64,000 nt of DNA from Bryoerythrophyllum caledonicum (lineage: Eukaryota > Streptophyta > Bryopsida > Pottiales > Pottiaceae). The notes below the pieces were generated by a model. That model worked only from the letters and a program-made list of their open reading frames with translations. It made no database searches and was not told where the DNA came from. Where the stretch lies: positions 10,246,291 to 10,310,290 of the forward strand of contig OZ020515.1 of NCBI GenBank assembly GCA_963971425.1, in the 5' to 3' direction. Shown here piece by piece: positions 24,154 to 62,342 of this stretch; positions within the stretch are counted from its first letter, which is position 1, and every line of letters begins with the position of its first letter. The position numbers were made by a program, and so were the translations under genes.

Positions 24154-25431
24154 ATGGTGAAGATGGAGATGATCGTTGCGATTGCTTTGTGTGCGTTGTT
24201 GTTTCTTGAGGTTTGCGAAGCGCATGTCGATACAACAACGGACGCCTCTGTCGATTTGAGATCTCGGGGGTTAATCTTGACCAAATGTTGGGCTCTCATT
24301 ATCTTATTTCTTGTGGCGTTTTGGGGGAGTGTCCTGCCGTATTGGCGCAGGAAGTGCAAGACGTTCCTACTCCTAGGTACGCAGTTCGCGGGGGGCGTGT
24401 TTCTGTCGACGACGCTGATGCACTTCCTGTTCGATGCGGACGTGACGTTCAAGGTGCTGCTGCCCTCGGCGAAGTACTCATTCGCCGCCATGTTCACCGT
24501 CGTAGGATACTTGCTCACCATGCTGGCGGACTGGCTGGTGCATCGCGTGTACAATCTCCGCGCGTTTCAGCAGCTGCAGAGGGATCAGTATCTCGAGAGC
24601 GCCACCGAAGCGGGTACCCATGCAAAAACTTGCATGCGTTTAGTTTCTTTTGGTTTTTTGATACATTACTTTCAACTAAGAGTTTCGGGAGGTCCAGGAG
24701 TTCAATTTCTTGTTTTTGTTATTTCGCATGATCAGTTTGAAAGCGGAGATTTCCATCGACTATTTATGTGAATTTTCTGCCAGGGCCTGAAACGAAGGCA
24801 GCAATTCTGAAGACTCTGAACCTGTTTGACACGGTGCTGCTCCTCCTCATCTTATGCTTCCATTCAATATTTGACGGCATTACAATCGGCGTATCAGGTC
24901 ATTTTCATCTCTCAAACCTCTTTTCCCTCTCCAAGCTGAAAATCTAAATACCTCCGCGTAGCGTTATTTACAGTAAAAAACAGTGCAAAACAAGAAGATG
25001 GATCATATTAGCATTGATTTTGTTTTCTCATGAAATCGATTACAGCAACCCGTTACGAGACGTTCACCAAGGCGTGGAAGGTGGGGCTGCACAAGCTCAT
25101 CCTGGGCATAGCCATGGGCATCACAGTGTTGCGCCTGGCGTCGCCCCGGCAGTGGCTCAACTTGGTCCTCTACGGCTTCGCCTTCTCCATCTCCACCTCC
25201 GTCGGCGTGGCTATCGGCATCCTCATGAACACCACCGCCGAGAACGCCATCGCCGACTGGATCTTCGCTGTGTGCATGAGCCTCGGCACCGGCGTGTTCG
25301 TGTACGTGGTCATCAACCACCTGTTGGCGTGGGACAACCACAAGCTTTTCCACCAGGAGCGTGCGCTCTTCCGGTGGCTGGCTGTCCTCTCCGGCGCCAT
25401 TGTCGCTGGAGTCGTCCTCATCTGGGATTGA
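24154..25431 (+). CDS. ZIP-family divalent metal transporter (ZIP-a), three exons
   Basis: Exons 24154-24613, 24784-24897 and 25046-25431 join at GT-AG borders in phase 1 to give 319 residues. An N-terminal signal or first helix (IVAIALCALLFLEVCEA) precedes the eight-helix ZIP core: [19 protein letters not shown] (helix 2), [16 protein letters not shown] (helix 3), LLLILCFHSIFDGITIGVS (helix 4), VGLHKLILGIAMGITVLRL (helix 5). It ends in the short luminal tail VLIWD seen in this family. Plant ZIP proteins carry zinc, iron or manganese into the cytosol across the plasma or vacuolar membrane. The helix-4 metal site reads HSIFDG, where the usual form (and the paralogue at 60773) has HSVFEG. The His-rich cytosolic loop is short. 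The start ATG is followed at once by a membrane segment, supporting the choice. Confidence 0.9.
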
Positions 25432-26230
25432 CAAGCTTTCTCCCTCTTCTCCTTCGTCAAGCTGAATGTAAGACGTGAGGTTCTGCGGATGATTTCCTAT
25501 GTAAAAACGGCCTGAACATTTTTGTTTGTAGATGATAGCTAAGCATAACTTGGAGCTCTACTGTATCTAGAGATGGTTATGAATTTGTGCATATTGTTTG
25601 TGTAAAGAAGGCCATGAAACGAGCCTTGTCTCTTTCAATTTGGAATATTATAAGTTAACGCTTGGCAAATTTGAGTGTGGACGTGAGTGTACTTGCTAGA
25701 GTCATGCTATTGGATTTTACAAATTTCCACCCTCTCCTCGGATATACAGGCACATATTTCACTCTTTATTTCACCAAAAAAAAATGTAGTAAAGTTTAGC
25801 AACACATACACCATTGGATTGAAGATTCTTCAACTAGCATCTTTCATTTGGAGATCATTTCAATATCTGAACCTTATGATGTTCAATTACGACACCATAC
25901 ATGTAGAATACTGTGGCCAATCTTTTCAGGGAAACTAAAAATGAGTATATACTCTACAAATAAATTTACAAGCTCAGGAAGCTCTAGCGGCTTTAGTTGC
26001 CATGATGCGTCACAGGATACAATTTTTCCGAGTGGAGATCACTGCAGTAGCGTTGGGGACGAAATACTTGGTCACCAGCAATTCGCATCGGTACAGAAGA
26101 GCTAAGGATAAGAATAATCCGTCACCCAGATTTCTTGCGAGTTATACATCAAGGTGAGAGTTTATCAGCAAATATTGAGAGTCGAAAACATATATTGAGA
26201 GTAAAACTCTTGTTGTTTTAGTCCGAGTCT
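25432..26230. other. 3' region of ZIP-a and intergenic stretch
   Basis: The first 200 bases are a probable 3' untranslated region. At 25687-25733 lies one copy of a 47-bp direct repeat found again at 32409-32455. The frames at 25687-26105 show no recognisable protein. Confidence 0.45.
25687..25733 (+). repeat. 47-bp direct repeat, left copy
   Basis: It begins GTGTACTTGCTAGAGTCATG and ends AAATTTCCACCCT, and matches 32409-32455 with a single mismatch. The two copies bracket the ABCF5-like pseudogene and the Copia element. Confidence 0.85.
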
Positions 26231-27174: not shown

Positions 27175-27294
27175 GGTTATGGGCCCACTACGTATAGATA
27201 GCAAACATGAGTTCAACAAATTGAGCACTGAAGGCATTTAGATAGAGCCTATCCACGTAAGTTGAGAGAGTGTTTTACTCCACTGACAAGTGTC

Positions 27295-28608
27295 ATGGAC
27301 GTACGAAGCACCACAGCCGGCCGAGGAGCTGGTCATGCTCACACGCCGATTTTTGGAGAAGTGGTTGACGACCACAGAAGCCAAAACTCGGTCCTTGTTC
27401 AAGTCCCGGCAAGACATGAGGCTGTAAGCCTCACTACGCACGTAGATAAACTAACTGGTGACAACTTTGGTGTGTGGAAGTTCCAAATGAGTGTTGTATT
27501 TAGAGCCAGAAAGTTGATGAAAATTGTAGATGGTACACTTCCGAGAGAGATGTTTGAGGATGAGGAAGAGTGGTATGACAAAGATGCAGTATGCCAGTCT
27601 ATTATCATCTCAGCCCTGGATCCTAAACTCATACGTAGGTTGATGGCTTGCAAGACTGCAAACCAAATGTGGCGTAGATTAAGCGTAGTGCACGAGCAAA
27701 ACGCTACAGAAAATATACAACTATTGCAACAACAGTTTTTTGAACTTAAAATGAAACCTAACGGAGCAATAGCCGACCACATTGGTGCGGTAGAGCATTT
27801 GACGAACCAGTAATCAGATCTTGGAGAACTTGTAGGTGAAAGGGCAATGATGACCAAGATCACATGTTCTTTACCACCCAGCTTCAGGTACTTAATAGCT
27901 GCATGGGACAACGTTCCACTTGAGCAACAGAATCTTGAGTCCTTGACCCTACGACTTCTAAGAGAAGAAACAAGAAACCGCATCTTGAGTGAGATTGATG
28001 GCGAAGGAGAGAAGGCATTTTTTAGCCGTGGAAGCACATCTGGAGCTGGCCAGAAACACGTGACGGTTGAAGAGAGAAAGAAACGTGCAGCAAAGGTAGC
28101 TGAGCTGAAGAAGAAGACAAGCTGCAACCGATGTGGCAAGAAAGGCCATTCGGAGCGTGACCCAGAGTGCCTGGAGGGAAAGAAAGAAAACAGTCAAGCA
28201 AAGGTCGATAAACCATCTGGAGGAAAGAGTCAGAAGTCAAAGAGTGCAGCACACGTCGTGGCAAGTGAAGATACCGATGAAGAAGAAGACAGCACTGCAT
28301 TTATGGTGCATGGAGGCGAATGTGAAAAAGATGATTCTTGGTACATGGATGGTAGGGCGACGGAGCATATGACTGATCGCATCGATTGGTTTTCTACTTT
28401 TGAAGAAGTTGCTGAAGGCCGTTGGCCTGTAATGATAGCTGATAATCGCCGCCTATGGATTCGAGGTATTGGAGCCATACAAATAAAGTGCCTCCTTGAC
28501 GAAAAGTGGCTCGGACGAAGAATGGAGAGAGTACTATTTGTGTCCGAGTTACGAAAGAATCTCTCTTGGGTGGGCCAGGCAGCTGATCGTGGATATGTTA
28601 CAACATAA
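27295..28608 (+). pseudogene. Copia gag and protease region
   Basis: A gag protein begins near MDVRSTTAGRG and contains the Copia gag core KLTGDNFGVWKFQMSVVFRA. It is broken by TAA at 27811-27813, then continues in frame to a zinc knuckle, CNRCGKKGHSERDPEC, in which two extra residues precede the last Cys. The protease follows as DSWYMDGRATEHMT. The usual catalytic Asp-Ser-Gly reads Asp-Gly-Arg, so the protease should be inactive. The frame ends at TAA (28606-28608). Confidence 0.85.
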
Positions 28609-30050
28609 ACGAAGGATGCTTGTTATCTTGCTACTGCAGACGGAAGCGTGGTGATGACTGAGACACGTATACAAAGTTGTACCGACTGCAGATAAAGGTG
28701 CTTTTACCAATGAGCCTTGCAAACTTCGTAGAAGCTGATAGAGGTTCGGCCGAGCAAGGAGATGAAGATTCTGCTGCACTGGAGAAGAAATCTCGATCTT
28801 CAAGAAAGTTAACTCTCTGGCATCAGTGATTTGGCCACGTAAATACTGCTACCATCGTGAACATGCACTCTCACGAATCTGTCAACGGTTTGGAGCTTCC
28901 AAATCATGTGTTACCGCAAACACCATGCGCTGGATGTGCCATGGGAAAGAACAAGCGCCGCCTATTTCCAAGAGCCAGTACAACCCCACGAGTAGATAAA
29001 CCTGGCATTTTCTTCCATACGGATGTATGCAGGCCAATGCACCAGGCATCAGCTGGAGGAGCCAGGTATTTCGTTTTGTTTAAAGACGATTGCACTGGTT
29101 ATCGTTTCATCTATTGTGTGAAAAATAAATTTGACGTGTTGGAGTGTTTCAAAGACATGTATTCCTTAGTTCTTCAGTAGACAGGAAACCAAGTGCAAAA
29201 GATTCGCACTGATAGAGGCGGTGAATACGTAAATAGTGAGTTTAAAGCTTATCTGCAAAGCTTCCATATCCGCCATGAACTCACAACCTCTCACACACCC
29301 AAGCAAAATGGAGTGGCTCAACGAGACAATCGTACGATTGTGGAGTGTGTGCGGACAATGTTGCATGCGAAAAATCTCAGCTTGCGCTAGTGGGGGGAGG
29401 CAGTCCAGACCGTGACATATTTGCTGAACTGTTCGGGTTCAAGAGCAAGAGAATATCGTACACCGTATGAACTGTGGTGGGGAAGACGACCAGCCGTTGA
29501 TCATCTCAAGGTCTTTGGAAGCGTAGCCTTTGTCCACGTGCCCAAAGCTCTCAGGCGAAAGCTCGACCCAAAAAGCGTAAAAGCCATTTTTGTGGGGTAT
29601 TGTGCTACAACAAAAGCTTATCGATTGTGGGACCTGAAGAATCGTCGTATTATCGTCAGCCGTGATGTCATATTTGACGAGTTCTCTCTACCCGATGAGG
29701 CGCCGAGCGACACCATGTCAGGTGTATTTACACTACATGTTGATGAGACTGCACGACCAAGAAGCGTGTCAGCCGTGCACCCTCCAACCGCCAACCAAAC
29801 CCTGGACGAAGAGACAAACCTGTCACCTGCGGACGCTGACAACGTGGATAGCAACACTGAAGGCGGTCAAGGCTCAAGCTCCCAGGCACCAAATCCAAAG
29901 AACGAAAGAGACGAGCATCTCCAGGAAGACCACCGCTCTCCCCGTCCACACCGCATGCGAGGCGCGCCAGCACGTTTGGCCGACTACTACGTTCCCAAAT
30001 CTTTTGCAGGTGTAGCAAGCACCTCTGTGTGCATCCCCAACGACCCATAA
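28609..30050 (+). pseudogene. Copia integrase region
   Basis: The GAG-pre-integrase motif LWHQ, stop, FGHVN is followed by a zinc-binding CAGCAMGK region. The catalytic core follows with HTDVCRPM (first Asp), IRTDRGGEY (second Asp) and NGVAQRDNRTIVE, where the catalytic Glu of the normal AER motif is Gln. The sequence then runs through WGRRPAVDHLKVFGS and FVGYCATTKAYRLWD, typical of Copia. Stops lie at 28827-28829 (TGA, from CGA by C-to-T), 29178-29180 and 29388-29390, with a frameshift near 28690. Integration activity is lost. Confidence 0.88.
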
Positions 30051-31597
30051 AGTTATCACGATGCCATGCGGAGTCCTCATGCGCACGATAAGAGGGCAGC
30101 AATGCAGGCTGAATATGATTCGTTGATCAAAGCTCAAACTTGGTATCGCTTCCAAAAGGCAGAAAGGCAGTCAGGTGCAAATGGATCTTCCGTATCAAGA
30201 CTAATGCGGATGGATCAATTTCCAAATATAAAGCGCGATTGGTGGCCCAAGGATGCTCACAAACTCATGGAATTGACTACGACCAGACTTTTAGTCCGGT
30301 CGTCAAGTATGATGTTCGTGCCGTATTGGGGATCGCCGCACAATAAGCTATGTATATGACTCAGTTTGACGTCCAAACTACTTTTTTGAACGGTCTGATG
30401 GATACAATTCTCTACATGTTCCAGCGGCCCGGGTTTGAGGTAAAGGATCTAGAGGGCATCATACTCGTATGTCTGGTACTGCGGAGTCTTTATGGTTTTA
30501 AACAATCCGGTAGAATCTGGAACAAGACTTTTAACGTATTTTTGCAGACATTTGAATTGGAACCAACCACTGCCGACCCTTGTGCTTATGTTTCTAAGGA
30601 GATGCCACCTCTTTTTGTTACCCTCTTTGTGGATGACAAGCTCGCCTGCTGTGCCATCCAGAAGCGCCTTGATGGTCTCATCCATTATATGGAACATGAG
30701 TTTGCAATCACTCGTTCTTCCGCAGAATTATATGTGGGGCTCCATATACACCAAAATGCCAGTCGTCACATTATCTATGTAAACCAGTCTGTGTATTTAC
30801 AGAGAATTCTTCAGCGATTTGGTTTTGAGGGATGCGAGTTTGCTACAACACCTGCTGATCCAAATGTTCAGCTTGATGCCACTGTCGACCCACCTAAAGA
30901 AGTCACTTTTGTTTATCCAACTGCTGTTGGATGTTTGCTTTTTGCTCAAACTCTTACAAGGCGTGACATAAGCTTTGCTGTGAGCAAAGTGGCACAATTC
31001 TCTGCAAGCCCCCAACGGCCTCACTTCCAGGCTGTAAGCAGAATTTACCGCTACCTAGCAGGCACGATAAACCTATCTCTTTGCTATGATGGCAACACTG
31101 CAAACACAGTACTTGCAGCATTTGCCGATGTTGATTATGCAGGGGATGTGACTAATCGAAAGAGCCGCTCAGGCAGTCTCCTTATATTGAACCATACTCC
31201 AGTCTCTTGGAATAGCAGAAAGCAAGCATGTGTAGCAACGTCAACTACTGAAGCTGAGTATGTCGCTGCCAGCTCTACCACCAAGGACATCCTTTGGTTT
31301 TGTCGACTGCTCAGCAACCTTGGTTTTGCCCAGCCTTCACCAACTCCATTATTCTCTGACAACCAAAGTGCCATCCGGCTTGTACATAATCCAGAGTTTC
31401 ACCGCCGCACCAAGCACATTGACGTTGTCTACCATTTTATAAGGGAGCATCAACGCCAAGGCGACATCAGCGTTAGCTTTGTGTCCACCACTAAGCAACT
31501 CGCTAATCTGCACACCAAGGCGCTCCCTGCAGATCGTTTCTGTCACTTACAACAAGCCATTGGACTCTTGCCTTGTCCCACTGATGAAAACTTATAA
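30050..31597 (+). pseudogene. Copia reverse transcriptase and RNase H region
   Basis: After a frameshift near 30140 the reverse transcriptase reads CKWIFRIKTNADGSI, ARLVAQGCSQTHGIDYDQTF, FDVQTTFLNG, SLYGFKQSGRIWN and LFVDDKLA (the DD catalytic pair). RNase H follows with FADVDYAGD, STTEAEYVA and FSDNQSAI, giving its acidic residues. One stop (TAA, 30344-30346) breaks it. From 30350 to 31597 the frame is open and looks largely intact. Confidence 0.92.
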
Positions 31598-33950: not shown

Positions 33951-34292
33951 GGTTACCATTGTGATACACTCACAAATAATGATCTCACTCCACTTCTAAA
34001 CATACACTCTTCTCATGTACTACTAGAAGAACATTTTTTTTTTGCATAGTTTTAAAAAGCACCGATTGAAGGCTATAGCGATTAAAGTTCAGAAGGTGCC
34101 AGTGGTAGCCACTATATGGTGTTGTATTTGAGCATCACAAGGTTCAAATATTGAAATGACCTCGAAATGAAAGATATTGGTTAAAAAATCTTCAATTCAA
34201 AGGTGTAAGTTTTGCTAAACTTAAATACATATTTTATATTCTGTAAAGTGAATACGTCCTTGTATATGTTGTTCCTAAATGACATTTAAGGG

Positions 34293-35002
34293 TAAATCCC
34301 TAAAGGACGGTGACTATGTTCCACAAAACCACCCCTTAAATGCCTATTGATATGGGATATTATTCTTAAAAACTTTTACTATTTTCAACCACTAAATCTC
34401 AAAGTATAGTACTACAAGAGGACACTTAAACCATTTTGTAAACTTTGACCACGCAGATTGTAAGAGACATGCATTGAAAGCAAGCAAAATTGTGTTTTTT
34501 TCCTTGCGGACAAGGTCGGCATACATTGACTTAAGATGATAGCATATTTTTCCATAAGTATTATGGATCTGTGTTTAACATTGTGCTAGGTCATTGCACG
34601 CCAAAATTCACAAGTGATGAAAGTGTTTAGGATACGAAAAAAAAGTCTTGCAATGACAAGGGGTATTGAATGTGGCCATTTCCCTAGGAAACATTTTTTA
34701 ATCTAGATTTGAAATAAATATTTGTTGGATCTCAAATCCAAATGGTAGATGATATTATCATGCATTTTCCTATTATGAGGAATCATTCTTGAAAACTTTT
34801 GAAATTCTTGATTTCAATGCATTTTATGAAATTCATAATTTCTATAAAATCAATGAGGGTTGCCAAGAACTTTTCTTCACCACTGCCTCCCTCAAGAAAT
34901 TATACTATTCAACCCCACAATACTTTGCTTAGCTAGCCCAAACTTAACCTTTTGATGATTGAAATATCATTTCCCCTCTAGAAGTACTAAATATAGATAT
35001 AT

Positions 35003-36270: not shown

Positions 36271-37359
36271 CAATAGTAATCAATTCCAAACCGCTTGGAA
36301 AAGGTGTAAAGAACTACCGGTCAACTCTTGGGAAATTTGAGGTCTATTAGAGTTATTTGTAAAGGGAACCGGTCTTTTATCCTCCTTTTTTCATAGGAAT
36401 GAAAATCTAACATGTATTTGAGTGTAGCCGCAAAGTAATCATGTGAAATAAATTCAGGATTTGAGGGTTTTATGGAGGTGTCAGTTACCACAAATGGCAC
36501 AAATCTCCCAAAAACAAACAAGAATAGTGTTGAACAGTGTTGGCTCATTGGACCAGTGTGGTATACATATTCGGCAAAGTTGCTGACATGGCTGACTTGA
36601 ACAATGTGTACCATGTGACAACACTCGGCGCTCAATAAAAGCCAGGCTCAAACTGGAGTTTGGCAATTATGGGGCTCAAAAACTAATATGTCCAGTGTTC
36701 TATTCAAGGTCTACACTAAAAACCTCCCAATGGACTCGGCGACCCTGGCTTTTCCATTTTACAGGTCAGAAATTGAGGATTTGGGGTACTTTGCGGAATA
36801 CTCTATTGTATGGACAAGCTTTGTGATATTTAGAGATGTAAGACAACCTTTTTTTTTTTCGAAGTAGGATGAAGGTTGAGTGAGCTCCGTATTTTCTGGT
36901 GAGGGGGAGTGCGGAACTTAGTGTCAAATCAAACAACATAGGCCACAAGGAGTGCTGGACCTTGTCGAGAGCCCCTATTTTGCATCTGATTTGATTATAG
37001 GGTTAGGCCTGGGAAGCAGGCTGTGTTGGAAAGGCTCACAAGCTCCAGATCTGAGGTTTTAGTGAGGAGATCGAGGTACTTTGGAGTAGGATTTTGTGGA
37101 GAGTTTTAGATCTGAAAGCTTGGGGACTCGTGTTGGACACAGATCTACTCTTCAAAGTACCAACATACCTGACCGCCCTAATCTGTGAGAGGTTCCGGAT
37201 CTGCAAGCCGCCTACAAGCCCCACACCCTCCGAGCCAGCGCCACAGCATACAACATTGGAGGAAGAACCAGCAAACTTGGGTCCAGGAGCTATGGCGCAT
37301 CATATCAGGCTATTTCTTACCTACACACCTTCTTTTCATTTTTTCTCATCTTAGTATTA
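36271..37359. other. non-coding stretch left of the LINE
   Basis: No gene is supported. The 5' end of the LINE probably lies in its right part (after about 36960), but no target duplication was found to fix it. Confidence 0.35.
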
Positions 37360-38367
37360 GTGTGTTTTGCTTGCGGCTTCCTAGTACACTTTAAACTCAC
37401 ATCAACACCAACAGTATGCTCACTAGTGCACACACCTGACCATGAAGAACACAACACTCTCACACACATAAAATTTGCTCGCAAACACAACGTTAGCGCA
37501 CAAGTAAGGAAATGCCAATTTGTCCAACGCAATTTCAATAAGAAGTCATACAGGCTAAGCACCATCCACCTAGCTAACACCGACATAGGCACATTGTCTA
37601 GACCTCTAACAGGAGATTCAGTATCTCCACAAGTGAACGGACTCTGCAGCAATACAGGATTGTGTGCCGTACCGCTGCGTCGCAGCAGAGACCCCGACTC
37701 TGCGGATTTGAAGTCCACGATCAGAGGGCAAACACGCAATTTGCTGAGGGCCGCGAGCAAGACGAAATTCTACAACGCAACGAAGTACATCAGAACAAGA
37801 CCTCAACCGCACCTACAAAGCAGACCAAAGCAAAACAAAGACCAGCACCAACACACGCAAGATGGAAGCATCTCGCCTAACCCCGAATGCACACACTCCA
37901 CAACAACAAATCTAGGTAAGTTTTCTAACACCCTCAATTACTGTTGTTCATATATTCATGCTGAGAAGAAACATAACGTACATCATAACCACGAGATTAA
38001 TAGAACTGAATCCATAGCATCCATAGCAGCAGTTCATAACATCAGAAACACAAGTAGTAGCTGCTATACCCGCACTAAAAGTAAAAACCCTAACAAAACC
38101 CTAGTAAAACAAAAAATAAAACAGCGTAAACAGCCAGTAGACAAAGTAAGGCAGTACGTACCTGTGCTTCGAAAAAATCTTGTCTGGATCCTAAGCTACA
38201 GCCAGTACCAAGGAGATTCGACCCAAAAGCGCCTGGGACAGTGGTGCCGTAGTCAACCTGCACGGGGAGTGAAGAAAATCAGCAAACATTGCCGCCAGCC
38301 CAAAGACGAAGACACCGACACGACCAACACGAATCAAGACTACGTAAACACCAAAGAGGACCAATAC

Positions 38368-40652
38368 ATGAAGGAGCTGCAGGACGAAACCAAGCAAGAA
38401 GTAGCTGTCAAGGAAAGAAGGGACTCTGCACAAGCAAGACGAAGCCGAAGAACCGCAGAGGCCACCCAAGAAGACCGAAACCAAGACAAAGTCGAAGACG
38501 AGCCGCGAGACCACAAACAGAGGCAGGAAGCAAGAGAGCGCGAGAAAGAGGCTGCAGCAACAAGCCCAAGCGAGAGAACCCAGCACAACAAGACCAAGAC
38601 ACATCAAGATCAGGAACGAGCAGCAACAAGACCAAGAAATAGAAGTCCGAAGAAGCGAAGACCGAAAACAAACAATCAGGAGCAGCGAGGTCAAGAGCGA
38701 GTACGCGAAACGAAGAACCAAGTGCACCAAGACCAAGAACGCGAAACATACACAACAAGATCAGGAATCGCGAGGCGGCTAACGGGAGGCAGCGAGACCA
38801 AGTGGACGTCAGCAGGAGCATTTCCCCACAGCCACAGCCCCGGGCAAGAGCAGAGGAGCGACCCCCCGAAGCCACAGCCCCAGGCGAGAGCAGAACGCGC
38901 GAACAAGACTTATACGGGCCTCCACTGCTCGGCGAGAGCGGGGCTCCTCCTGAATTGGGCCGAAGGAACTGTAGGAGAGGCGGAGGACACAACCATACGG
39001 GACGCCCCAGTGGCAAACGGCTACCCAGCCAGCATGGCAGGCAGCTCCAGAAGGACTGGCTCCAGCAGCGTTGACATGGAAGGCCTGGAGGAAAGTCCCA
39101 TCAGAGCACCATCAAAGGGTACAACGGAAGCCAGTAGCCACAAGAAGAACAAAGTCTCGATCACGCAAAAAGGTAAGTCACTACACGAAACAGACTCACC
39201 AAAGTTCAAATTTTGGTTGGATTTCCAGGACATGGAGACCTTGGCATTGGAGGACGGTGCCGAAGAATTGTACAGCGGTGAATCCATAGGGGACATGGTC
39301 ACACGTGGAATGAAGGCGGAGGAAGCTATGAAGGTATGCAACGCAAGAGTGGCCTTCCCCCGAATTCCACAACTACTTTACTCCATGGTAACAAGCGATG
39401 GAATGGGCCAACATTTCAACATCACCCAAGTCCCCGTTGACATCAAAACTAGTGAGAATTTTGGCCTCTCCCTTGACTTTCACATTGCCATCTTCTTCGA
39501 AACACCTAAAAACCCACTCATGCATGATGTAGTTAAAAAATGGTTGTAGAAAGACTAAAGAAAATGAACATAGCCTTAGGGGAAGACCTTATCGATCCAA
39601 TTGCTATCCAATGCTTAAGCATTAAGAATGGGAAAACTAAAGGGGTTTGGGCCGGTAACATTAAGTTGCATCTCCTCAAACCGGAGATTGATGGGCTAAT
39701 GCTACTCAAAGGCCTTAGGCCTTTTATTCTAACCATTGATGATGAATGTGTAGTTGGAAAAGTGTGCAAGTCCTATCATGGCATTGCCAAAGGATCTAAC
39801 CTCTCCGTGAAGATCAAGTGTGACACTTTGATAGGAGTTTCCGCTCAAGTAGTGTTTAAGGAGATACTTGGCAATAGCTTCCATCGTGGCCACAAGTTTG
39901 AGATCTCGGGCGTCCAAAAAATGATTGGAGACTCACATGCCTTTGTCATTGCCACTACCCCCCAACAAGTGAAGAAAATACTAGCACACCACATCACCAT
40001 GCGAAGTAAAGTCTTGGAAGCAAGACAAGTCCTTGACACCAAAGGACCAAAAGGTAATTTCGAAACCAAAGCCCGAAAAGATGCTTTAACACTGACCTTA
40101 TCTCCCCTTCCTATTCGTTTGGACCTCGCAAACACTACCCATGAAATATACAAAGTCATGGGAGGTACTAATGTGCGCTCTATTTGGTTTCATAGGGACA
40201 ATGGCACTCACCACAATGGTAGTGCAAACGTCCTTTGTGCTAACCCAATAGTGTATAGGACTTTTGTGAAGAAGACTCACGAAATAGGGGGAAACTTTGT
40301 GGATTTCGCACCACATAGAAGAAGCTTAGAGGGGGTAGACCCTCCCACCGCCGAACAAGTGAAGGAGTTTGGGTTTGAAGACATCAACACCGCAATTGTC
40401 AATACCATCACCACATTCAACATGCAAGAGAAGAATGAGCACATCACCAAGAAGAACATGGTGGAGTTATTGGAAGAGAACAACAAGAAACTAAGACAAG
40501 AGAGCAAGGAGTACACCGACAAACTACACGACGAATTGAAGACTCAAATGGAAGGCATCCAAGAATCAATGTTAGCCACCCTCCAAAGTATGAGAGCATT
40601 CTCGGGAAGAATCAACAATCCAAGAATTGAAGAAAACCGGCCAAACATGTGA
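38368..40652 (+). pseudogene. LINE ORF1-type protein in two overlapping frames
   Basis: The first frame is open from 37360 but has no ATG until 38368 (MKELQDETKQEV). It runs to TAG at 39547-39549. The second, in the -1 frame, begins at 39540 within the overlap and runs to 40652. Joined, this is about 760 residues. The N-terminal part is a long Arg/Gln/Glu-rich disordered basic region. The middle contains FWLDFQDMETLALED and FGLSLDFHIAIFFETP and spans the frame change. The C-terminal part ends in a coiled coil (MVELLEENNKKLRQESKEY). No known RNA-binding domain is recognised. Position upstream of a LINE ORF2 on the same strand makes ORF1, a nucleic-acid-binding partner of the retroelement RNA, the best guess. 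Confidence 0.6.
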
Positions 40653-41845
<1,193 letters not shown>

Positions 41846-42229
41846 GAATAAAGTGTCTGTTCGTTCCACTACTAAGACCATGCCCATAGGACAAGGAATT
41901 AGTGAGCTGGAACTACTTCCCTCTCTCGAGGATAGACACTATGTAACAAGAAACCGAAGAACCACAAGTCAACCAGCCAACCAACGAATCACAAACCAAG
42001 CAACTAGCCAATGAACTAACCTCAAACAAGGCAAGTAGTCAAAAACCTTAAAACCAACTAGTCATGAAAATCAAGGCGGGGGGAGAATTTAGGGGGGGAC
42101 CTGTGTGTTTGGGAGGGCTTGGTTGTTTTCGATTTTGCGTTTATGTAGAAGAATGGACATGGCATGTTGGATAGCTATGGTGTTAATGTTTTTAAAGGAT
42201 GTTTTAATTGTTTCTCAATTAGTGGGCAA

Positions 42230-42230
42230 T

Positions 42231-42277
<47 letters not shown>

Positions 42278-42309
42278 AAACAACAACAACAACAACAAAA
42301 ACAACAACA
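42230..42309. repeat. interrupted AAC repeat
   Basis: AAC units with two AAAAAC interruptions, forming the right flank of the nested minus-strand LINE copy. Confidence 0.9.
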
Positions 42310-42312
42310 TAT

Positions 42313-42850
42313 ACAAAGACGAATACACACAATCAAATAAACAAAAAAGAAAATACCAAAGCCACATACAAAACCAAAAAACTCTAAAACAAAACAAAAA
42401 ACCCATCTACTACAAAACACTAATACTAAATATGTATACCAATATAAAACCAAATACAACCACATCTACACACCCAATATACAAAGACAACCACACAACA
42501 TCAAAAAATACATACATACACACATACACACATACAAAGAAGAATACATACAATCAAATAAACAAAAAATAAAAAACCAAAGCCACATACAAAAACAAAA
42601 AATTCCAAAACAAAACAAAAAACCCATCTACTACAAAACACCAATACTAAATATGAATACCAATATAAAACCAAATACAACTACATATACACACCCATAT
42701 ACAAAGACAACCACACATCATCAAAAAAACACATACATACACACATACAAAGACGAATACATGCAATCAAATAAACAAAAAATAAAATACCAAAGCCACA
42801 TACATAACCAAAAAATTCCAAAACAAAACAAAAAACCCATCTACTACAAG
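42313..42850 (+). repeat. tandem 215-220-bp monomers in the LINE 5' part
   Basis: Three head-to-tail copies begin near 42313, 42533 and 42746. They share ATACAAAGACGAATACA, CAATCAAATAAACAAAAAA and AAAACCCATCTACTACAAAA. The third runs directly into the first, degenerate 2A module of ORF2. Tandem monomers upstream of coding sequence recall the promoter monomers of some animal L1 elements. Promoter function here is inference. Confidence 0.75.
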
Positions 42851-42871
42851 ATACTAACACTAAATAGAAAA

Positions 42872-42895
42872 GACTTAGAGACTAACCCAAGACCC
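42872..42895 (+). other. degenerate 2A site, copy 1
   Basis: Reads DLETNPRP where a working 2A peptide needs D-x-E-x-N-P-G-P. The Gly codon has become AGA (a G-to-A change), so ribosome skipping is not expected here. The residues after it (MPNALKRHLALHKKN) parallel those after the intact copy. Confidence 0.8.
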
Positions 42896-43732
42896 ATGCC
42901 AAACGCTCTAAAAAGGCACCTTGCCTTGCACAAAAAGAATACCAAAACACATTTTTTACCAAACACCATAAAACTACAACCCGAATACGTGCACATAGCC
43001 CAAAAACGTGCCCCCCTCTCTAAAACAACACACACAACACATCAACAATATAATGACACATACCCATTTATCGCCATATACTTAAATCAAAATAATAAAC
43101 ACCCTCCATCCCACATTTTTTACGCCCTAGGAAACCATGAAAAATCAATACACAAGGTATCATATGTTTTTCTACACAGTCAAGCCATACCTTCCTCAAT
43201 TAAAACAATAAAACTAAAATTCCCCTACCTCCCTAACACTAGTATCAATGAATCAATGAATATAAATAATGAAATACATACTGATACAAACACCAAAACA
43301 AACACCTTTTTAATACCCAACATAAATACTAACACAACTCCATACGAAAGTGACTTAAATACCCCCGCAAATACCAACATAAACCCATATACAAATATCT
43401 TTACACATAATATTCACATATTCAAAAAACCAAACACAATCACAAAAATAGAAAAACAAACATACACACACCTACACATCATTAATAAAACAACAACCAC
43501 TAAACAAATAAACACACGAGCACAAAATTGGTTAAAAATAAATTCAACTACACCCACTATAGAAATCAATAACAAAAAATTCATTACCCACATACTAAAT
43601 ATAAACAACCACCTCCCCCCAAACAAACAAGACCTTAATAACATAACTAAGTCTAAAACAACTACTATACAAAAAATAAAAACGCTAACATACAATACTA
43701 AACAAACACAAAACAAACTCTTACTACTTCTA

Positions 43733-43762
43733 GGAGGAGACATAGAAACCAACCCCGGACCC
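43733..43762 (+). other. 2A ribosome-skipping peptide, intact copy
   Basis: GGDIETNPGP followed by Met-Pro, preceded by a Leu-rich stretch (LLLLL), matches the 2A consensus D-I/V-E-x-N-P-G-P. In 2A peptides the ribosome skips the Gly-Pro bond, releasing the upstream product and continuing. Here it would separate the N-terminal module from the enzymatic polyprotein. Confidence 0.85.
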
Positions 43763-45394
43763 ATGCCAAATATACTAAAAAGGCACCCTACATCACACAA
43801 GAAAAATGCCAAAATATACTTCATACCTAATACCATAAAACTACAACCGGAATATGAACACATTGCAAAATCCTTTGCACCCTTTTTAAAAAACACACAT
43901 ACATTACACCACACACATAACACCACACACCCAAACATTGCCCAATACATACAACAAAAAAATATGGATCCACCTCCCCACATTCTATATGCACTGATAA
44001 TCACTACTCACCCAAACATCGATAAATGTAACCATCTCTTATACCCACAAAATTTGAACACAATTACATGGGCCAATACACTTCTACAAACTCTACAAAA
44101 CTTACAAAATCCACCAGAACGACACATTTTCACTACACACTCGTATACTAAATTCCTAGTAGACAACCAAAATATTATAAACCATGAGAATTCAATACAT
44201 AAAAGATTATACGACTTCTTACACAGTCAAGACATACCACCCTCAAATGATACAATAAAACTAAAATTCCCTTACCTCCCTAATATACTCATAAATGAAT
44301 CACTAAAATGTCTACACCCTATACCAGAATACATCCACCCACCCCCACCCCTTCCCTACATCCCTCCTCAAAATCATAACATTAGATCAAACCAAGAAAA
44401 AACATACATAATCACATGGAATGCCTCCTCACTAAACACTGCCCTTCCTAGCTTACAAACTTTAGTCACAAACACAAACACACCACCAGCCCTTATAGTA
44501 ATACAAGAAACAAAACTAACCGTCACAAAATCCACAAAATATATACATAATATATTTCAAAACTATAAACTCATCTTTAACAATACACATACACTTACAA
44601 GATGCATGCAACAACGGAGACCATACACTCCGGGCCGAGGTGGCCTCCTTGCATTAATACACAAAAAATATACATTCCCAGGCAACATCAACAAAATCCC
44701 TACCCCAATGCACATATCACCATACATTCAAATAATCAAAATCGCTAATCACCCACTACAACCGTCGTTAATCTTTCACATGTTTATGCCATCCCATCCC
44801 GAAGATATTAGATTTCTCTTGGATATACAAAACACTATTACATCCCAAATTAATAATAATCCCAATCATTCATACCTATTATGCGGAGACTTCAACAGAG
44901 ACATAGCGTTAATTGGCCGCCAAAATGGAAACCATCACACCCCCCCTCAAAACCTAGATTACCAATGGCGTCGCTTCACAGAAAACTTAAACTTCACTTA
45001 TATCAATACCGATACACAATTCTCTAGACAGGGTGGCTATAATTATGGTGGTTGGAGTCTAATAGATGGATTCTATATAAATACAAACAACAATACACAA
45101 TGCACCTCTTCAACAAACAAAGATATTATTCTCAACTCGGACTACTCAACCGTACAATTGCACATTCCAAATAACACACTAATTAGTAGAACTCCTATAA
45201 CCCTAAACAAAGACACTATACGTATACTCAACCCCATCCCAAAATCCAACATAGAAAAATTCAACATAAAATTCTTCGAAGAAAACTCCGTACGAATAGA
45301 CTCCCTCATAAACACTCTTGAAAATAATAGTCAATTTACACAAGCACAATGGCAAGAAGCATGCGACACCCTAGACAAACTCATCAAAAAAATC

Positions 45395-45520
45395 TCTGAC
45401 ACACTAGAACAAACTTGTAGAGCTCTACCTGTAGAGTATATTGAGCTCTACAATACACTAGAACTACACTACAGGTAGAGCTCAATACACTAGAACAAAC
45501 TTGTAGAGCCCAATACCTCA
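45395..45520 (+). repeat. local duplication and inversion inside ORF2
   Basis: ACACTAGAACAAACTTGTAG occurs twice (about 45400 and 45487), with inverted CTACCTGTAGAG / CTACAGGTAGAGC pieces between. This 85-base rearrangement ends the first ORF2 segment and explains the loss of frame between the APE and reverse transcriptase parts. Confidence 0.7.
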
Positions 45521-48500
45521 AATGACAAACAGAACTTCTCAACAAGGCGGGTACCTACCCCGCAAACTCTCTAAAACTTGGAAACAACACTTAACCACAT
45601 ACCATACCATACGCAAAACCATTAGAATTGTAAAAAACAACCCTCAATGGCATAACCATCCAATATACAATGAACTACTAACTCTACAACACATCCAAAT
45701 CCCTACCCCGCCGCCTCCGGACCTTCCCCACGATACATGGATAAATGATATCGCGCTAATTGCAAAAAATGCCAACATACAAGCCCGGAAAGTAATCACA
45801 AATTACACCAAAGAAAACATTAAAAAAGCCATCTCAAAATACATACAACTATACGAAATCAGTCCAAAAAAAATTAACAAAAAAGTCTTTAAAAACCTTG
45901 AATCCCCGCCAATGGACTGTATCACAGATCAATATAATAATATTCTAACTAGCCCCGAAGACATTGCGAATGAAATATTCAACCAACAAACAAAAACCAA
46001 TAGACCAACAGTACCAACATGTAATTATCAACATACAATAGAATGTACATGTGCAATACGCCAATACCCATGGCATGACTTGGACGAATATACTCTTGAT
46101 AAATGGGGCAAACCAGAAATTCCAATACATAAATACCTCAACAGAGCCACATACGACACATGCCTTCAAAATCTTGGAAATAATAAAGCCCCAGGCCCAG
46201 ACCGCATACCAAACTCAATACTCAAAAACATGCCTCCAAGATTTCATAAACTTTTATTCGTATTCTTCTCTCACAGCTATAAACAAAAACAAATACCAAA
46301 CTCATGGAAAACAAGCACAACAATTTTACTATAGAAAAAAGGCGACTCTTCAATGCTACCCAACCATAGGCCAATTGCACTAGCTAACACAATATATAAA
46401 TTCTTTACCAGTACACTCACCTCCATATTATCCTCATACGGTGAAAAATTCAAAATCCTACATGATAGTCAAGAAGGATTTAGAGCAGAGAGAAGTACCG
46501 CACGACAAATACAAACTATAATAGCCGCGCTAGAAGAGGCAAAATTTACTAACCAAGATATATACATATTATACGTGGACTTCAAAAATGCCCTTGGCTC
46601 AATTGACCATGCCCGACTTCTAGCAATAATGATAGACCTTGGGTATCCAAAAGATGCAACTACACTTGTTGGAAACATCTATTCTCAATCATCTACTTGT
46701 TATATCGGTGAACACTTTGGGAAAACAAAACCTATATCCATCCAAAGAGGAACTATACAAGGGGACACCCTCAGCCCATACTTATTCATTATATTTTTAG
46801 AACCACTACTCAGATGGCTAGAAAGAATCAATTTTGGGTACACTTTTGGCACATCATAGGTCACAATAAACTCCGCCGTATACGCGGATGACCTAGCCAC
46901 CATAACTAACAAAATCAAATCAATCCAGATACAACTAAACAAAATTGATAGATATTGTAAATGGGCCGGTATGGACATAGGTGTCCCAAAATGTGCCGCT
47001 ACTGGATGCCCAAACAAATCCAAATTGAACCCTACCACTTTCAAAGCCCTAATGCAAGCCTCGAACATCAATTACCGCAATCAACCGATCCCCATACTAC
47101 ACCAAAATGAACCATACATATACTTAGGTATAAACCTTGTTCCCTCGCTAAAATGGAAAATCCAAATCCACACCACAACGACGAAACTCATCAAACAATG
47201 CAAAGAACTAACAACATGCCCAGCCACCATGAAACAAAAAATAATAATGGTGGATACCGTACTACGCCCAGGGGTGGCATACAGTTTCTACAGTGTACCA
47301 TACTCTATACCAGCTATCAAAAAACTTGATAAAAAAATAATAGCCATACAAAAAACCATATGTGGACTACCAAAATGTATGTCAAATGCAATAACCCAAC
47401 TTCCACATAACCTATTTGGACTAGAAGCTTTCTCCCTCAAAAATGCATATCTCCGATGTATAGGCGAACAACTGCAATATGCTTTAAACGATAAAGGAAG
47501 GCTTGGGAAAATATATAATGGACTAACTCATTATGTCCTTGCCCAATATGGTGGCGCCGAAAACATACCTAGAATTAAAAAATAATGACTGCTTAAGATC
47601 ACCAATAACACGAACATTCTTCTTATTAAAACATATAGCTAAAGTCCACCTTAAAAGTACACTGCCAAACTTCCTCACTAATCCTACAACACTAGAAATA
47701 CTATGGCGCCAAGAAACACTAAACCACAACACACTAAATTCCCAACCCTCCCAAAAGCTCCTACAAAAGCTCCTCTCAAAAAATATTTTTGAACTAAACC
47801 AAATTACTTTACCCAACGGCACACACATCATGAACAATGAGGACTTCAAAACCTACCATTTCACCCCATCCAAACTAATAAAAAAACGCCCTAAATATTG
47901 CTAAACAACTATTTTTCCACCCTACTTGCCCCACTACATGTCACACTCCTTGTAACATACATCCCTACTCTCACATACTTAAAGATTCCTTCATCACCCT
48001 CAACAATAGCATCATCCCAAGAAATATCCCCACACCAATCAATCCCCCTAACCCTCCACATACACACCACCCCCGTCCCCCTACATACATCCCCAAAAAC
48101 CCTACCACATATCCCATTAATAACATCATACGCCATAAACATATCCAACACACAGACACAAATAACATACAAACTACCTACACAAAATATTTATGCCAAT
48201 GGCAACACAATGATAATACATACAATAAATGGCTCCCCCAAAGAATCAATTTTCCACGGCACGATACCAATACCTCCACACATAACACCGAAAAATTAAA
48301 ACAATACTACCAAACGATCCAAAAGAAAATATACTCAGATATCATCCTTGCCCACCAGCCACAAGAACAATTTTTAGACTCAAGATCCGTAACACCACCC
48401 ATAATTATCCCACTCTTAAACATCTACACAACAGAATGCAACCCCGAAAATGATATCCTTACATCCTCAAACACAATTCAAATAGATAACAATCAAGCAC

Positions 48501-50865
48501 ATCTATATGAAGAAAACGGCCGACATTTACACACCATGCCTGTTACCCGACTCCAATGGCTATGGAATCAATATAATACAAAATTACAAACTCCTACAAA
48601 CATCGAACCAACGACCCAACCCTTTGAAACCGAACTAATATGGCTCTACCAAAGGTATAAATACCGAATACCAAAAACTAACCCCCTCAAAAATGCCCAA
48701 TACACAATACCCACTCTCAATTTAGACTCACTGATCTCATCCTTTAATATCGAGCAATCATACTTTTCTTCCCCGGTCACATGTTCTACCAAACTAAAAA
48801 AATTCTACTCACCTTATGAAAGAGACAAAATATTCGGATCCCTAGGAAAGGCCTTTGACTACAAATGGATCGGTAAAATGGCATAGCCCACCCCCACAAC
48901 GAGAAGGACATGGAACAAGCCATACAATGAGCTAGACTTGCCGCCAAACACAATCCAAATAACACAAAAACAGTCATCATCACACCGAACAATAATTGGT
49001 ACCAAAACAACAACCAACATCCAAACCCATTCCCAGATTCCCATATCATTGCATTATTTGAAGCAGACACAATACCATACGAAGAACCTACTATTCCACC
49101 CGAGCTAAAAAAACCCCGAATAGAGCCATCTACATTACAAATACTATACGTCCATCATCAAAATCATACCCTTGGTTCCCTAGAACAACATGCGGAACTT
49201 ACCTCCATAACAAACAATCTAAACATACACCGACTATACACAAAACCGGCCCCACCAACACCCATACAAACCTCCGTAAACAAAAGTAAAAACTGGTCAA
49301 AACTAAACTATGTCAACAACACATTAAACTACTCCGTCATACCTCCCCCTCTTCCAAACTACCAAACCCATACCACACCAGAATTTAACCCCACATACAG
49401 TTATTACACCGATGGCTCCTTTAAACCACCATAACAAATTAGCCCGGGCTCTTGGCACAGAGAAAAAGCTGGCTATGGCATATATAATTCTACCAAAGAA
49501 ATTAAACTAGCCAAAAGACTCCATGGACTATAGAATATCCTCAGAGCAGAACTCATGGCTATCCACAAAACACTACAAATCATCACAACAAAATACAATG
49601 ATGAACCCGCACATATATTCACCGATTGTATAAATGCCCTCTACCTACTTAATACTCAAATAACACACCCTACCCTTCACAATAGCCACCCCGACCAAAC
49701 CATATTAACATCAATGGTCCAAATGTTACAAAACCGTACACAAATCACAACCCTCCACAAAGTGAGAGCCCATGCCAACATCGATGGCAACGACCAAGCA
49801 GACAAATTAGCAAAAGAAGGCCGAGAAAAAACACACAAAAATGCCAAAGACCCACACAAACATGCCCATGCCACCCCATACTACTTTCAAAAAGAAGATT
49901 GGCCTTCCAAAGAAGATACCCCCCACAAAGGCCCAATTAGATTTTTGGGCAAATATCTCAAAAAACAAGACCTCTACAACAACCTTGACACAATTTCAGA
50001 AAATATTCCTAACATAGAAAAATGGTCTAACAATAACGACATAGACAATGAACTCTCTACAAACTTTTGGAAAAACCCCATCATCTCAGACTCGCAAATA
50101 ACATGCCTCATCAAATTCCGTACTGGTCAGTATATGGGAAACGCTCGCAAACAACTCTTCTTTGGAATAGAATGATTCCCATCCATAACATGTCCCATAT
50201 GCCCCTCAACGGACCCCGACACATGGCTCCATGTCCTTCTCAAATGCCAAAACCACCACATACACTCTCTAATTGTTAAAAGACATAATAAAGCGGTATG
50301 GGAAGTCCGAAAACTAATCACCTCCTACAATAAATCGAGATGTTTCATATTAATGAACGCCGGCACTTATAATAATAATCCACAAGAGAATACGGTCCCC
50401 CCTTGGCTACTCCCATGCTCGTGTATGACCCAAAGATGTCATTGCAACGCTAGGCTCAAACCAGACATCCTTTGCGTTAAAGGTTTACCATATAATGACC
50501 CACCACCCGATAACATCAACCAAGAATACACCATTCAATTCATTGAATTCACATATTGCAACGATAGATTTTCCCCAGAATCAATCCAAAATAAAATTGA
50601 TAAATACCAACCCCTTATTGACGACATCGTCGCCCTCGGATGGAATGTCGACCCCCTTATTGTAATCACATCAGGCGCTCGTGCCATCACCTTTATCCCA
50701 TCTATGAAATCTCTAGAAGATACCTTCAAGATACCCATTGAAACAATTAAAACCTCCTTTAAAAACATTAACACCATTGCTATTCAATATGCCATGTCCA
50801 TTTTACTACACAAACGCAAAATCGAAAACAATCAAGCCCTCCCCGATACACAGGACCCCCCTTAA

Positions 50866-51145
50866 ATTCTCCCCCCGCGTTGATTTATCATGACTAGTTG
50901 GTTTTGAGATTTTCGACTAATTGCTTGATTTGTGGTTCGTTCGTTGGCTAGCTGGTTAGTTAGTGGCTCGTTGGTTGGTTTGTGGTTCCTTGGCTACTTG
51001 TTACATAGTGTCTACCCTCGAGAGTGGGAAGTAGTTCCAGTTTACTAATTCCTTGTCATGTAGGCATGGTCTTAGAAGTGGAACGAACAGACACTTTATT
51101 CAAACCGGTCCCCTCTCGAGAACCGGTGTTCTTCTTCTTCTGGAC
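50866..51145 (+). other. LINE 3' untranslated region and tail
   Basis: It follows the ORF2 stop. It contains a GTTGGTTTG/GGTTAGTTAGTGG low-complexity part, a conserved AGTGGAACGAACAGACACTT block, arms ACCGGT...ACCGGT (51104-51127) and a short TTCTTCTTC tail. The whole is present inverted at 41820-42105 and its end at 32590-32695. Confidence 0.85.
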
Positions 51146-52062
51146 AAGCTTTAGCTTACACTAATTGCCATTACTATTCATGCCTTTCATTGGTGTAAAG
51201 AAAGGAAGCATGAAAATTCTCATACTCTCTCCCTTTTCTAAATTGAAATCTCACTTTATCTTCATCTTTTCTTTCCATATTTAGGATTTTAAGAGAAAGT
51301 TTATATTCTCTCCATGATATGTTAGATACTAAAGAATTTAAAATGAGTATACACTCAAACCTCATTAATATGACACTCTTGGTTCCCAGAAAATGTGATA
51401 CAATTGATCAATACTACATTGATGCTACATAAGATGGCATGATGTGACACTAGTAAGACGATTAGAGATTAGTGCTAAAAATAATATAAGAATGTCAAAT
51501 GCACATGTATATTATAATTGCATTTTCTTACAAGTGCTAAAATATAGATCACTTCTACTATTAGTTGGAAGTAAGGAAACTTTGAATGACACTTTACTTA
51601 CAACATAACAATTGGACAATATGCATCTCAAATTGAAAGTTTGTTACATGTTTTATTTATTTTCAAAAAAATTGTAGTAGAAAATAATTGACTTCCTGAG
51701 TAAAACTTGACAAAATCTCCACAAAATGTTTGAGCATCTTTCCATTTCAAAACCTTGGATTCAATGTCATTAACATCATATAGCATTGTGTCAACATCAA
51801 CATCATATAGCATTGTGTCAACATCAACATCATCTGTACTAACACATGCAATATCCTCAAAATGCAAATCTTTTCTAAAAAATCCTACGACTTCTTGTGG
51901 GTTTTGTAAAAATAAAATTTTCCTTAAGAAAATCCTAAACGTAAGATAATCTAGAGTGGGAAGAGACAAAGAGGGTAATTTTAAATCTACTGTAAGAAAT
52001 AACCCTTTTCACCCCTACTTTGCTTGTTAGTGTCACACTTGTTCATGTCACTTATAGAGGTA
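51146..52062. other. AT-rich non-coding stretch
   Basis: No gene is supported. A direct repeat of 27-30 bases (CATCATATAGCATTGTGTCAA) occurs twice at about 51773-51825. Confidence 0.4.
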
Positions 52063-60325: not shown

Positions 60326-60772
60326 ACACCAAAAAGAACGAAAAGCACTTCCGTTGATGGAGCAAAAGCCCTTTTCCACCAACCGCTTCCGCAACGAGTG
60401 GCCCTCCTTAATATCACGATCCTGGAGGGCAGGGGAAGAAAAGTGACAGAAGAGAGGGGGAGTACGACGCCCCAACTGTACTACCATCAACGCCCAGAGC
60501 GCCCATCACCAGAAACGGGAACAGTCTATCCTGTACTACGACTCGCATGTGTAGTACTCTGCCAGTACTATAACCTCACCACCGCGGCCCGAGCGCGCCT
60601 GTCACGCTGTCTTGTCGCTCTCCGACTCGAATGCCACTCCTGCGCACCTGCACGCCTGCAATCTTCGCTTCCAATCCGCCATCGATTGCCGAATCCCATG
60701 ACCCGCAGCTAGTACCTCTCCCCCTTGCATCCCCTCTCGCAATCCACCCGCATTGTGTTGAGGACGTGAGCC
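60326..60772 (+). promoter_or_regulatory. promoter and 5' leader region of ZIP-b
   Basis: GC content rises from about 60580 toward the ATG at 60773. No TATA box or regulatory motif was assigned with confidence. Confidence 0.4.
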
Positions 60773-62342
60773 ATGAGGTTTGGGATGGGGGTCGTGAGGG
60801 GTTGTTTGGGGGCGTGGGCAGTGGCGGAGCTTTGTGCGTTCGCCGCGGCGCATGGCGGGGTGGACCACGATGCGGAGGAGGGGGTGGATTTGCGGGACAA
60901 GGGGTTGATTTTGACCAAGGTGTACGCGCTGATTATCGTGTTCCTGGCGACGTTCGTGTCTGGGATCTCGCCTTACTTCCTGCGCTGGAACGAGGCGTTT
61001 CTGGTGCTGGGCACGCAGTTCGCCGGGGGTGTGTTCCTTGCCACCGCCTTGATTCACTTCCTGGCCGACTCGCACGACACGTTCCGCGACCTCAAGCCCG
61101 GGTCCGAGTACGGGTACGCTGAGATGCTGGCCGTCGTCGGGTACCTGCTCACCATGCTCGCCGACGTCGCCATCCAGCGCGTGCACCGCCGCGGGATGCA
61201 ACCCGACCTCGACGTGGAGCGCGCCAAGCAGCAGCTGCCGTATTCTGCCCGCGTTGAGAATTCCGTCGACGGTAGGATTCTTTGATGCTTACGAAGGTCA
61301 TCCTTGATTGGATTTGTCGTTGCTGACGAGGGTCATGCTCGAATTGGGTTTCTGCACCTGATTGTTTGTTGATGTTTTTTTCATGATTGTTGAAGTTGCT
61401 CAGTATGCTTCACTTGATGTTTTTTTGCACCTGATTGTTGTTGTTTGGCAACGCGCTGTGTGTCTTGAATTGCTCATGATTGAGAAACCTTTTGGTTTTG
61501 TGCTGATTTTCTGCAGTGCCGGAGGATAAGGAATCTGTGGCGAAGGCGAACCTCGGCGACGCGTTGCTGCTCATCCTGGCGCTGTGCTTCCACTCCGTCT
61601 TCGAAGGCATTGCTGTGGGTGTGGCATGTAAGTAGACCTTAGTCCCACTCTTATATTTGTTGTGTGAACCATAGTCGGCGTGCTTCTGATTGCGGTCAGT
61701 TCGTTTGTTCTCAAGGCTTACATATTGATTAAACCGGCACTTCAATGCAAAGCTTCCTAGTGCAATTCAGACCCAATTTTTTTTGGGTGTATTCTACGGT
61801 GTAGATGTAGTAGGATATGTCAGATTTTAACACAGGAGTAAAAGGAGAGAAGCACGAAACGATCAGAGAGAGGCAGCACAATCGCCTGCTTCTCTGTCCT
61901 CGTTTTCTGATGGTGTCGTTGTTTTTTGCCATGTTGTGTCGTGTTGGCAGCCACGAAGGACGATACATGGAGGGCGCTGTGGACGATTTCGCTGCACAAG
62001 ATCTTCGCGGCGATCGCGATGGGCATCGCGCTGCTGCGCATGCTGCCCAACCGGGCGCTGTTGCAGTGCTGCCTGTACGCGTTCGCGTTCGCCATCTCGA
62101 CGCCCGTGGGCGTGGCCATCGGCATCATCATCGAGTCCACGACGGAGGGCCACACGGCGGACTGGATCTACGCCGTGTCCATGGGCATCGCCACGGGCGT
62201 GTTCGTGTACGTCGCCATCAACCACCTGCTCGCCAAGGGCTACAAGCCCATCAACCCCCAAAGGCTCAACACGCCCTTCTGGCGCTGGGCCGCCGTCGTC
62301 GTCGGCGCCGCGCTCATCGGCATCGTCATGATATGGGACTAG
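60773..62342 (+). CDS. ZIP-family divalent metal transporter (ZIP-b), three exons
   Basis: Exons 60773-61271, 61517-61627 and 61951-62342 splice at GT-AG sites in phase 1, giving 333 residues. After a signal or first helix, the ZIP core reads [59 protein letters not shown] (helix 4 with the canonical H-x-x-x-E metal site) and [20 protein letters not shown] (helix 5). It ends with GIVMIWD. The wording is that of the plant ZIP2/ZIP11 branch, plasma-membrane or vacuolar carriers of zinc, manganese or iron. Its exon plan is the same as that of ZIP-a at 24154. The cytosolic loop between helices 3 and 4 is short with a single HRR cluster. All key residues look intact. Confidence 0.94.

Follow-up and report, generated by a model that had tools for sequence, protein, structure and literature searches.

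The window analysed here, a 64,000-nucleotide stretch of Bryoerythrophyllum caledonicum DNA (C2:10246291-10310290 of the assembly), contains a LINE copy of ~14.3 kb. Taken as a whole, this element is very probably best explained as a Dualen-type LINE encoding a 2A-freed protein with APE endonuclease, reverse transcriptase (RT), PCIF1-like, RNase H, CCHC, and restriction-like endonuclease (RLE) parts, in which the PCIF1-like module is most likely non-catalytic. We identified computationally its domains, the predicted folds of the RLE and the PCIF1-like domain, the target-site duplications, and the selection acting on the coding sequence.

Element structure and family copies

The copy in the window spans positions 36868-51141 on the forward strand and is flanked by an 11-base target-site duplication, GGACAAGCTTT, at 36812-36822 and, immediately behind the 3′ tail, at 51142-51152. 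Extra bases separate the 5′ duplication from the conserved element start (36823-36867), as they also do in intact copies. We delimited the 3′ part by blastn to copies c1, c9, and c11a and placed the 5′ start by eye, from its resemblance to the start of c1; the element thus begins to the left of position 37300, where the initial annotation had put it. From 5′ to 3′, the duplications enclose an ORF1 region, a stretch rich in microsatellites, ORF2, and a terminal hairpin with its (TTC)n tail (51100-51141, forward strand). In this copy the ORF2 frame is no longer intact: it contains in-frame stops, additional sequence near 45424-45484, and frameshifts at three places (near 47530-47580, 47880-47900, and 48884-48892). 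A 5′-truncated copy of the same family, represented by its 3′ end only, is nested in reverse orientation at 41800-42214 and is 84% identical to the 3′ end of c1. The stretch preceding the 2A motif is present as three tandem copies on the forward strand (42274-42910; 70-100% alike, with start-to-start distances of 221 and 213 bp), which include a degenerate 2A, KDLETNPRP, at 42869-42895.

The surroundings of the LINE hold several other features. Two multi-exon genes whose translations, read by eye, resemble plant ZIP metal transporters flank it at 24118-25557 and 60770-62377, and at 27232-31594 there is an LTR retrotransposon of the copia type whose long open frames show gag, integrase, and reverse transcriptase pieces, again read by eye. 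Repeats at 25742-25919 and 34120-34304 match the 5′ flank of c1 in both orientations and look like a short inverted-repeat element. Elsewhere in the assembly, C1 begins with TTTAGGG arrays.

The ORF1 region (37189-40652, forward strand) comprises open stretches at 37189-39546 and 39537-40649, with a conserved part at ~39140-40652; blastn aligns 39140-40774 to c11a at 70% identity. The ORF1 protein (L010:4-1443) belongs to a conserved family with 41 relatives (P0019-P0059), up to 56% identical and including one from the moss Ceratodon purpureus, and has a charged, probably helical C-terminus. A Pfam search with this protein gave no match, and a 14-row profile compared with the PDB gave no credible one (best E=0.05). 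The ORF1 and ORF2 frames overlap by ~120 nt in c1 and c9. We considered a programmed frameshift from ORF1 to ORF2 and dropped it because the two frames do not overlap in c11a.

A search of the moss's own 437-Mb assembly with the last 170 residues returned 7850 first-look candidates, and all 150 that were scored, the window copy included, are at least 92% identical. Counted by eye, the open frame is exactly 2809 aa long for 15 of these 150 and longer for four (3386, 3371, 3077, and 2991 aa). We examined ten copies at 20 kb and eight more at 8 kb, and found that the genome retains intact copies with a single ORF2 frame. Among the 2809-aa copies, six located on as many chromosomes are separated by 5 to 14 base differences across ~12.6 kb; when the gapless comparison is extended to c15, the seventh, it stops within ORF1. 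A script detects target-site duplications of 11-13 bp in six of seven full-length copies and a 7-bp match only in the remaining one, c11b. Because near-identical copies are spread over six chromosomes and carry target-site duplications, the family must have moved very recently.

The 26 stretches examined for 3′ ends contain 23 distinct ones, 19 located by a pattern requiring the tail and four by eye; this count leaves out L002, L004, L005, and L031, which repeat counted copies, and c15 carries a second, neighbouring 3′ end. In each of the 23, a hairpin region precedes a TTC-type tail, and the hairpin stem, inspected by eye, shows paired changes between c9-type and c1-type copies. The flanks, compared by eye, differ between insertions, which indicates that there is no single target and rules out site-specific insertion, including an R2-like insertion at one 28S rDNA site.

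Among 12 distinct intact copies, every part of ORF2 that was measured is under purifying selection, with dN/dS of 0.06-0.32 (pooled pairwise Nei-Gojobori values, no tree correction). The values are 0.18 for APE, 0.077 for RT, 0.197 for the PCIF1-like domain, 0.32 for the linker preceding RNase H, 0.087 for RNase H, and 0.064 for CCHC-RLE, the second-lowest of 11 parts.

The 2A motif and the enzymatic domains of ORF2

A StopGo/2A motif, GGDIETNPGP, lies at 43733-43762 on the forward strand, as initially annotated, and the 2A pattern appeared in none of 200 mononucleotide shuffles. GDIETNPGP is present in all four distinct intact copies that reach this position, two of which (c9 and c8b) are close to each other; eight further copies start downstream. 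Between 464 and 1040 residues of open frame precede the motif. The combination of a leader of highly variable length with a conserved 2A suggests that ribosome skipping may separate the enzyme from that leader. AGDVEPNPGP is found close to the start of P0007, a distant relative, and NPGP occurs in none of the other relatives among P0002-P0014, several of which start downstream. In c9, joined at 8600-9622 (L019/L020), a three-base repeat of ~1 kb runs inside the open ORF2 leader and reads as poly-Asn or poly-Thr depending on frame; the c9 frame is full-length. The accessible portion of a 2026 survey reports no evidence for StopGo/2A in plant viruses (PMC12846837), and among the open-access papers listed by our searches there was no report of 2A in Dualen and no paper treating both. 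The motif described here would show StopGo in natural use within the genome of a plant.

The APE domain (44408-45166, forward strand) retains the motifs QETK (44504-44515) and GDFNRD (44885-44902) that had first drawn attention to it, and matches PF03372 below the cut-off (E=2e-4; 21.7 bits against 24.5). In the intact ORF2, Pfam does not list it even at E=1, a profile built from five relatives misses it with default filters, and the APE region alone finds nothing in the PDB at E≤1. With filters off, the same five-relative profile matches residues 682-941 of the intact ORF2 at E=2.9e-21, and profile-profile comparison (hhalign) gives 97.6% probability over 244 columns. Pfam sees APE in five of nine members and RNase H in eight of nine. 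Judged from these alignments, the APE domain is real but diverged.

The reverse transcriptase and thumb region occupies 45522-47582 (forward strand), with the YADD box in YADDLATI (46881-46904); RVT_1 matches it at E=2e-16 in the window and 6e-26 in an intact copy. RNase H follows at 49402-49850 on the same strand (PF00075; E=2e-6 in the window, 1.5e-11 in an intact copy), and its expected acidic set is found in YYTDGSF (49402-49422), LRAELMA (49540-49560), FTDCINA (49618-49638), and DGNDQADKLA (49783-49812). A chromodomain between RT and the PCIF1-like domain, seen at E=0.085 in only one of nine members, is not claimed.

ORF2 ends in a CCHC finger and a putative R2-type RLE (50176-50862, forward strand). 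The finger, at 50191-50247, is also found in intact copies, and the C-terminal motifs read RLKPDILC (50452-50475, with PD at 50461-50466), IEFTYCNDR (50542-50568, with E at 50545-50547), and NKIDKY (50590-50607, with K at 50593-50595). The second nuclease, originally proposed from motifs and spacing as PD-(D/E)XK-like, passed a structural comparison: the AF2 model of the RLE (pLDDT 78.6, pTM 0.80) has R2 endonucleases, which are of the PD-(D/E)XK type, as its seven best PDB matches, and R2 scores best in both Foldseek and VIA. Profile comparison also matches the CCHC part to Bombyx R2 (E=0.003). As a single sequence, the RLE finds no R2 match in the PDB, so that profiles or models are needed. 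These predictions support the assignment of the C-terminal module as an R2-type RLE, with a CCHC finger followed by a PD-(D/E)XK fold.

The PCIF1/CAPAM-like domain and alternative readings of the element

A PCIF1/CAPAM-like domain, missed in the initial annotation, lies between RT and RNase H at 48428-49220 (forward strand; right end approximate), and its frame is broken at 48884-48892. Pfam matches PCIF1_WW at 48536-48883 (E=1e-10), and no WW domain is detected by Pfam in the intact ORF2. The window fragment used as a single sequence has no match in the PDB, and here too profiles or models are needed. The predicted structure is of middling confidence (pLDDT 65.2, pTM 0.59). The fold is kept in the model of the relative P0002, where the match to PCIF1 structures spans human residues 416-668 only. 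All nine RT-clade members whose sequence spans the interval from RT to RNase H have the domain, metagenomic relatives among them, and in related LINEs it is 22-43% identical to that of P0002. It is absent from P0012 and P0014. P0013, a distantly related LINE protein of 4194 aa that has a SET domain (Pfam) and a weak RLE match, matches the PCIF1-like domain doubtfully at best, at E=3e-4 when filters are off.

Read by eye against the alignment, the catalytic NPPF motif is kept in none of 12 sequences; in its place all 12 intact copies of the moss family read HPHN. Partial remnants occur in relatives (NPPG in P0005, NPEY in P0006, IPPF in P0016, and LPPY in P0010), of which P0005 and P0006 retain the Asn of the motif. 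The domain descends from a cap methyltransferase, apparently without its active site, and is most likely a non-catalytic RNA-binding or scaffold module that perhaps serves the element's own capped RNA. Cap binding is assigned to the helical domain of PCIF1 in the available text of PMC7641849; because the match covers human residues 416-668 only, cap binding is here a guess. A dN/dS of 0.197 indicates that the domain is kept, though under weaker constraint than RT, RNase H, or RLE. There is about an even chance that the Dualen-type lineage acquired this PCIF1-derived pseudo-methyltransferase long ago and has it as one of its core parts, a ribonucleoprotein module whose fold was kept and whose chemistry was lost, standing beside PHD-like fingers in some relatives. 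In P0006, P0007, and P0008 (in P0007 by eye), cysteine clusters resembling PHD fingers occupy the interval from RT to the PCIF1-like domain, and PHD fingers are matched below cut-off in P0008 (E=1.6e-4) and P0006 (E=0.048); these clusters suggest chromatin reading. Josephin domains are matched in P0008 (E=1e-11) and, below cut-off, in P0002 (E=0.002). A search for relatives in viral contigs gave 37 pattern matches, none of which was confirmed.

Three other readings were weighed. The PCIF1-like domain might still be an active methyltransferase with an altered active site, placing m6A on the element's RNA or cDNA to escape host silencing. Its retention across such divergent LINEs, the preserved fold of the P0002 model, purifying selection, and the NPPF remnants would all fit this idea; we nevertheless consider it quite improbable and do not favour it because NPPF is missing, with HPHN uniform in the moss family, and disruption of this motif in human PCIF1 lowers or abolishes activity, as the accessible parts of two studies report (PMC6318281, PMC10544176). 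A somewhat less improbable, though still unlikely, alternative is that the RLE is a degenerate remnant that no longer cuts and is kept for DNA binding, leaving all cutting to APE. In six of eight aligned rows, both rows of the moss family included, its (D/E)xK motif has T or G as the third residue, and the differing flanks argue that R2-like site specificity is absent. Against this, all eight rows share the PD, the E, and the D after it, a K-rich helix aligns, weakly, with the K..HY of R2, and the RLE is among the most constrained parts of ORF2 by dN/dS.

The remaining reading, that a plant L1 separately gained RLE-like and other domains and is not Dualen-type, is very improbable indeed. Plant L1 elements also carry RNase H, according to the available text of PMC4640811, and in PDB comparisons of the RT human L1 (E ~1e-20) outscores Bombyx R2 (2.3e-15). 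The best RT matches, however, are turtle R2 (E=1.5e-31) and bird R2 (2.7e-26), and the tail is (TTC)n-type, not poly(A). A 17-row RT tree also places the element in an 11-row group (92/95) with the PCIF1-bearing LINEs P0002-P0011, apart from two R2 rows and the one L1 row; the inside of this group is unresolved, and the deeper branches are long and unsure.

Proposed working and comparison with known systems

For a Dualen-type LINE with a non-catalytic PCIF1-like module, we infer the following scheme. ORF1 would supply a conserved protein without known fold and ORF2 a polyprotein whose hypervariable, microsatellite-like N-terminal leader would be cut loose by 2A ribosome skipping, yielding a leader-free APE-RT-PCIF1L-RNaseH-CCHC-RLE protein. 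APE and/or the R2-type RLE would then nick both strands of the target, at positions offset by 11-13 bp. RT may prime cDNA synthesis on the 3′ hairpin and (TTC)n tail, and RNase H would remove the RNA. The PCIF1-like domain, with a cap-adenosine methyltransferase fold kept and NPPF lost, could act in RNA binding or as a scaffold. This young, many-copy family, whose frames are still intact in a plant genome, offers a way to test how the two endonucleases divide their work.

PCIF1/CAPAM, the cap m6Am methyltransferase, resembles the module described here in the sequence and fold of its methyltransferase domain. The module differs in its loss of NPPF, in showing no match to a WW or cap-binding helical domain, and in being embedded in a retrotransposon polyprotein. 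No report of such a domain in retrotransposons was found among the open-access papers listed; a review by Iyer and others (2016) on adenine methylation in eukaryotes might mention one. The PCIF1-like domain would represent a new kind of captured module, suggestive of a LINE that recognises caps or RNA.

R2 elements are not known to carry APE or RNase H and use one rDNA target. The C-terminal module shares with their RLE the order of a CCHC finger and a PD-(D/E)XK fold; unlike them, the moss family inserts at many different sites. Another point of likeness is with 2A-bearing APE-type LINEs, reportedly the subject of Odon 2013, judged by its title, in which a (V/I)ExNPGP-type motif lies upstream of APE.

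The closest counterparts are the Dualen/RandI elements of green algae. Since the RT tree contains no named Dualen row, membership rests on architecture, by which the element would be Dualen-type. The initial annotation knew of no plant element with the whole set of domains. Of that set, only the 2A and the plant host add to the known plan, because APE, RNase H, and RLE together are already the published Dualen/RandI plan in the text available from PMC3636483 and PMC4640811. The latter, in the same portion, takes Dualen as a link between RLE-type and APE-type LINEs, and the accessible part of PMC8226300 describes Dualen families in all core-Reinhardtinia algae compared. Among the open-access papers listed on Dualen, and on dual-endonuclease LINEs in mosses or charophytes, there was no report of 2A or a PCIF1-like domain in Dualen. 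Like Dualen/RandI, the moss element combines APE and RLE in ORF2, encodes RNase H (E=1.5e-11 in the intact ORF2), and ends in short repeats other than poly(A), here of (TTC)n type; such ends are listed for eight of eight RandI families in a table of PMC3747384. Unlike the algal families as they are described, it carries a 2A motif and a PCIF1-like domain, the latter shared with metagenomic relatives, and resides in a plant, a moss.
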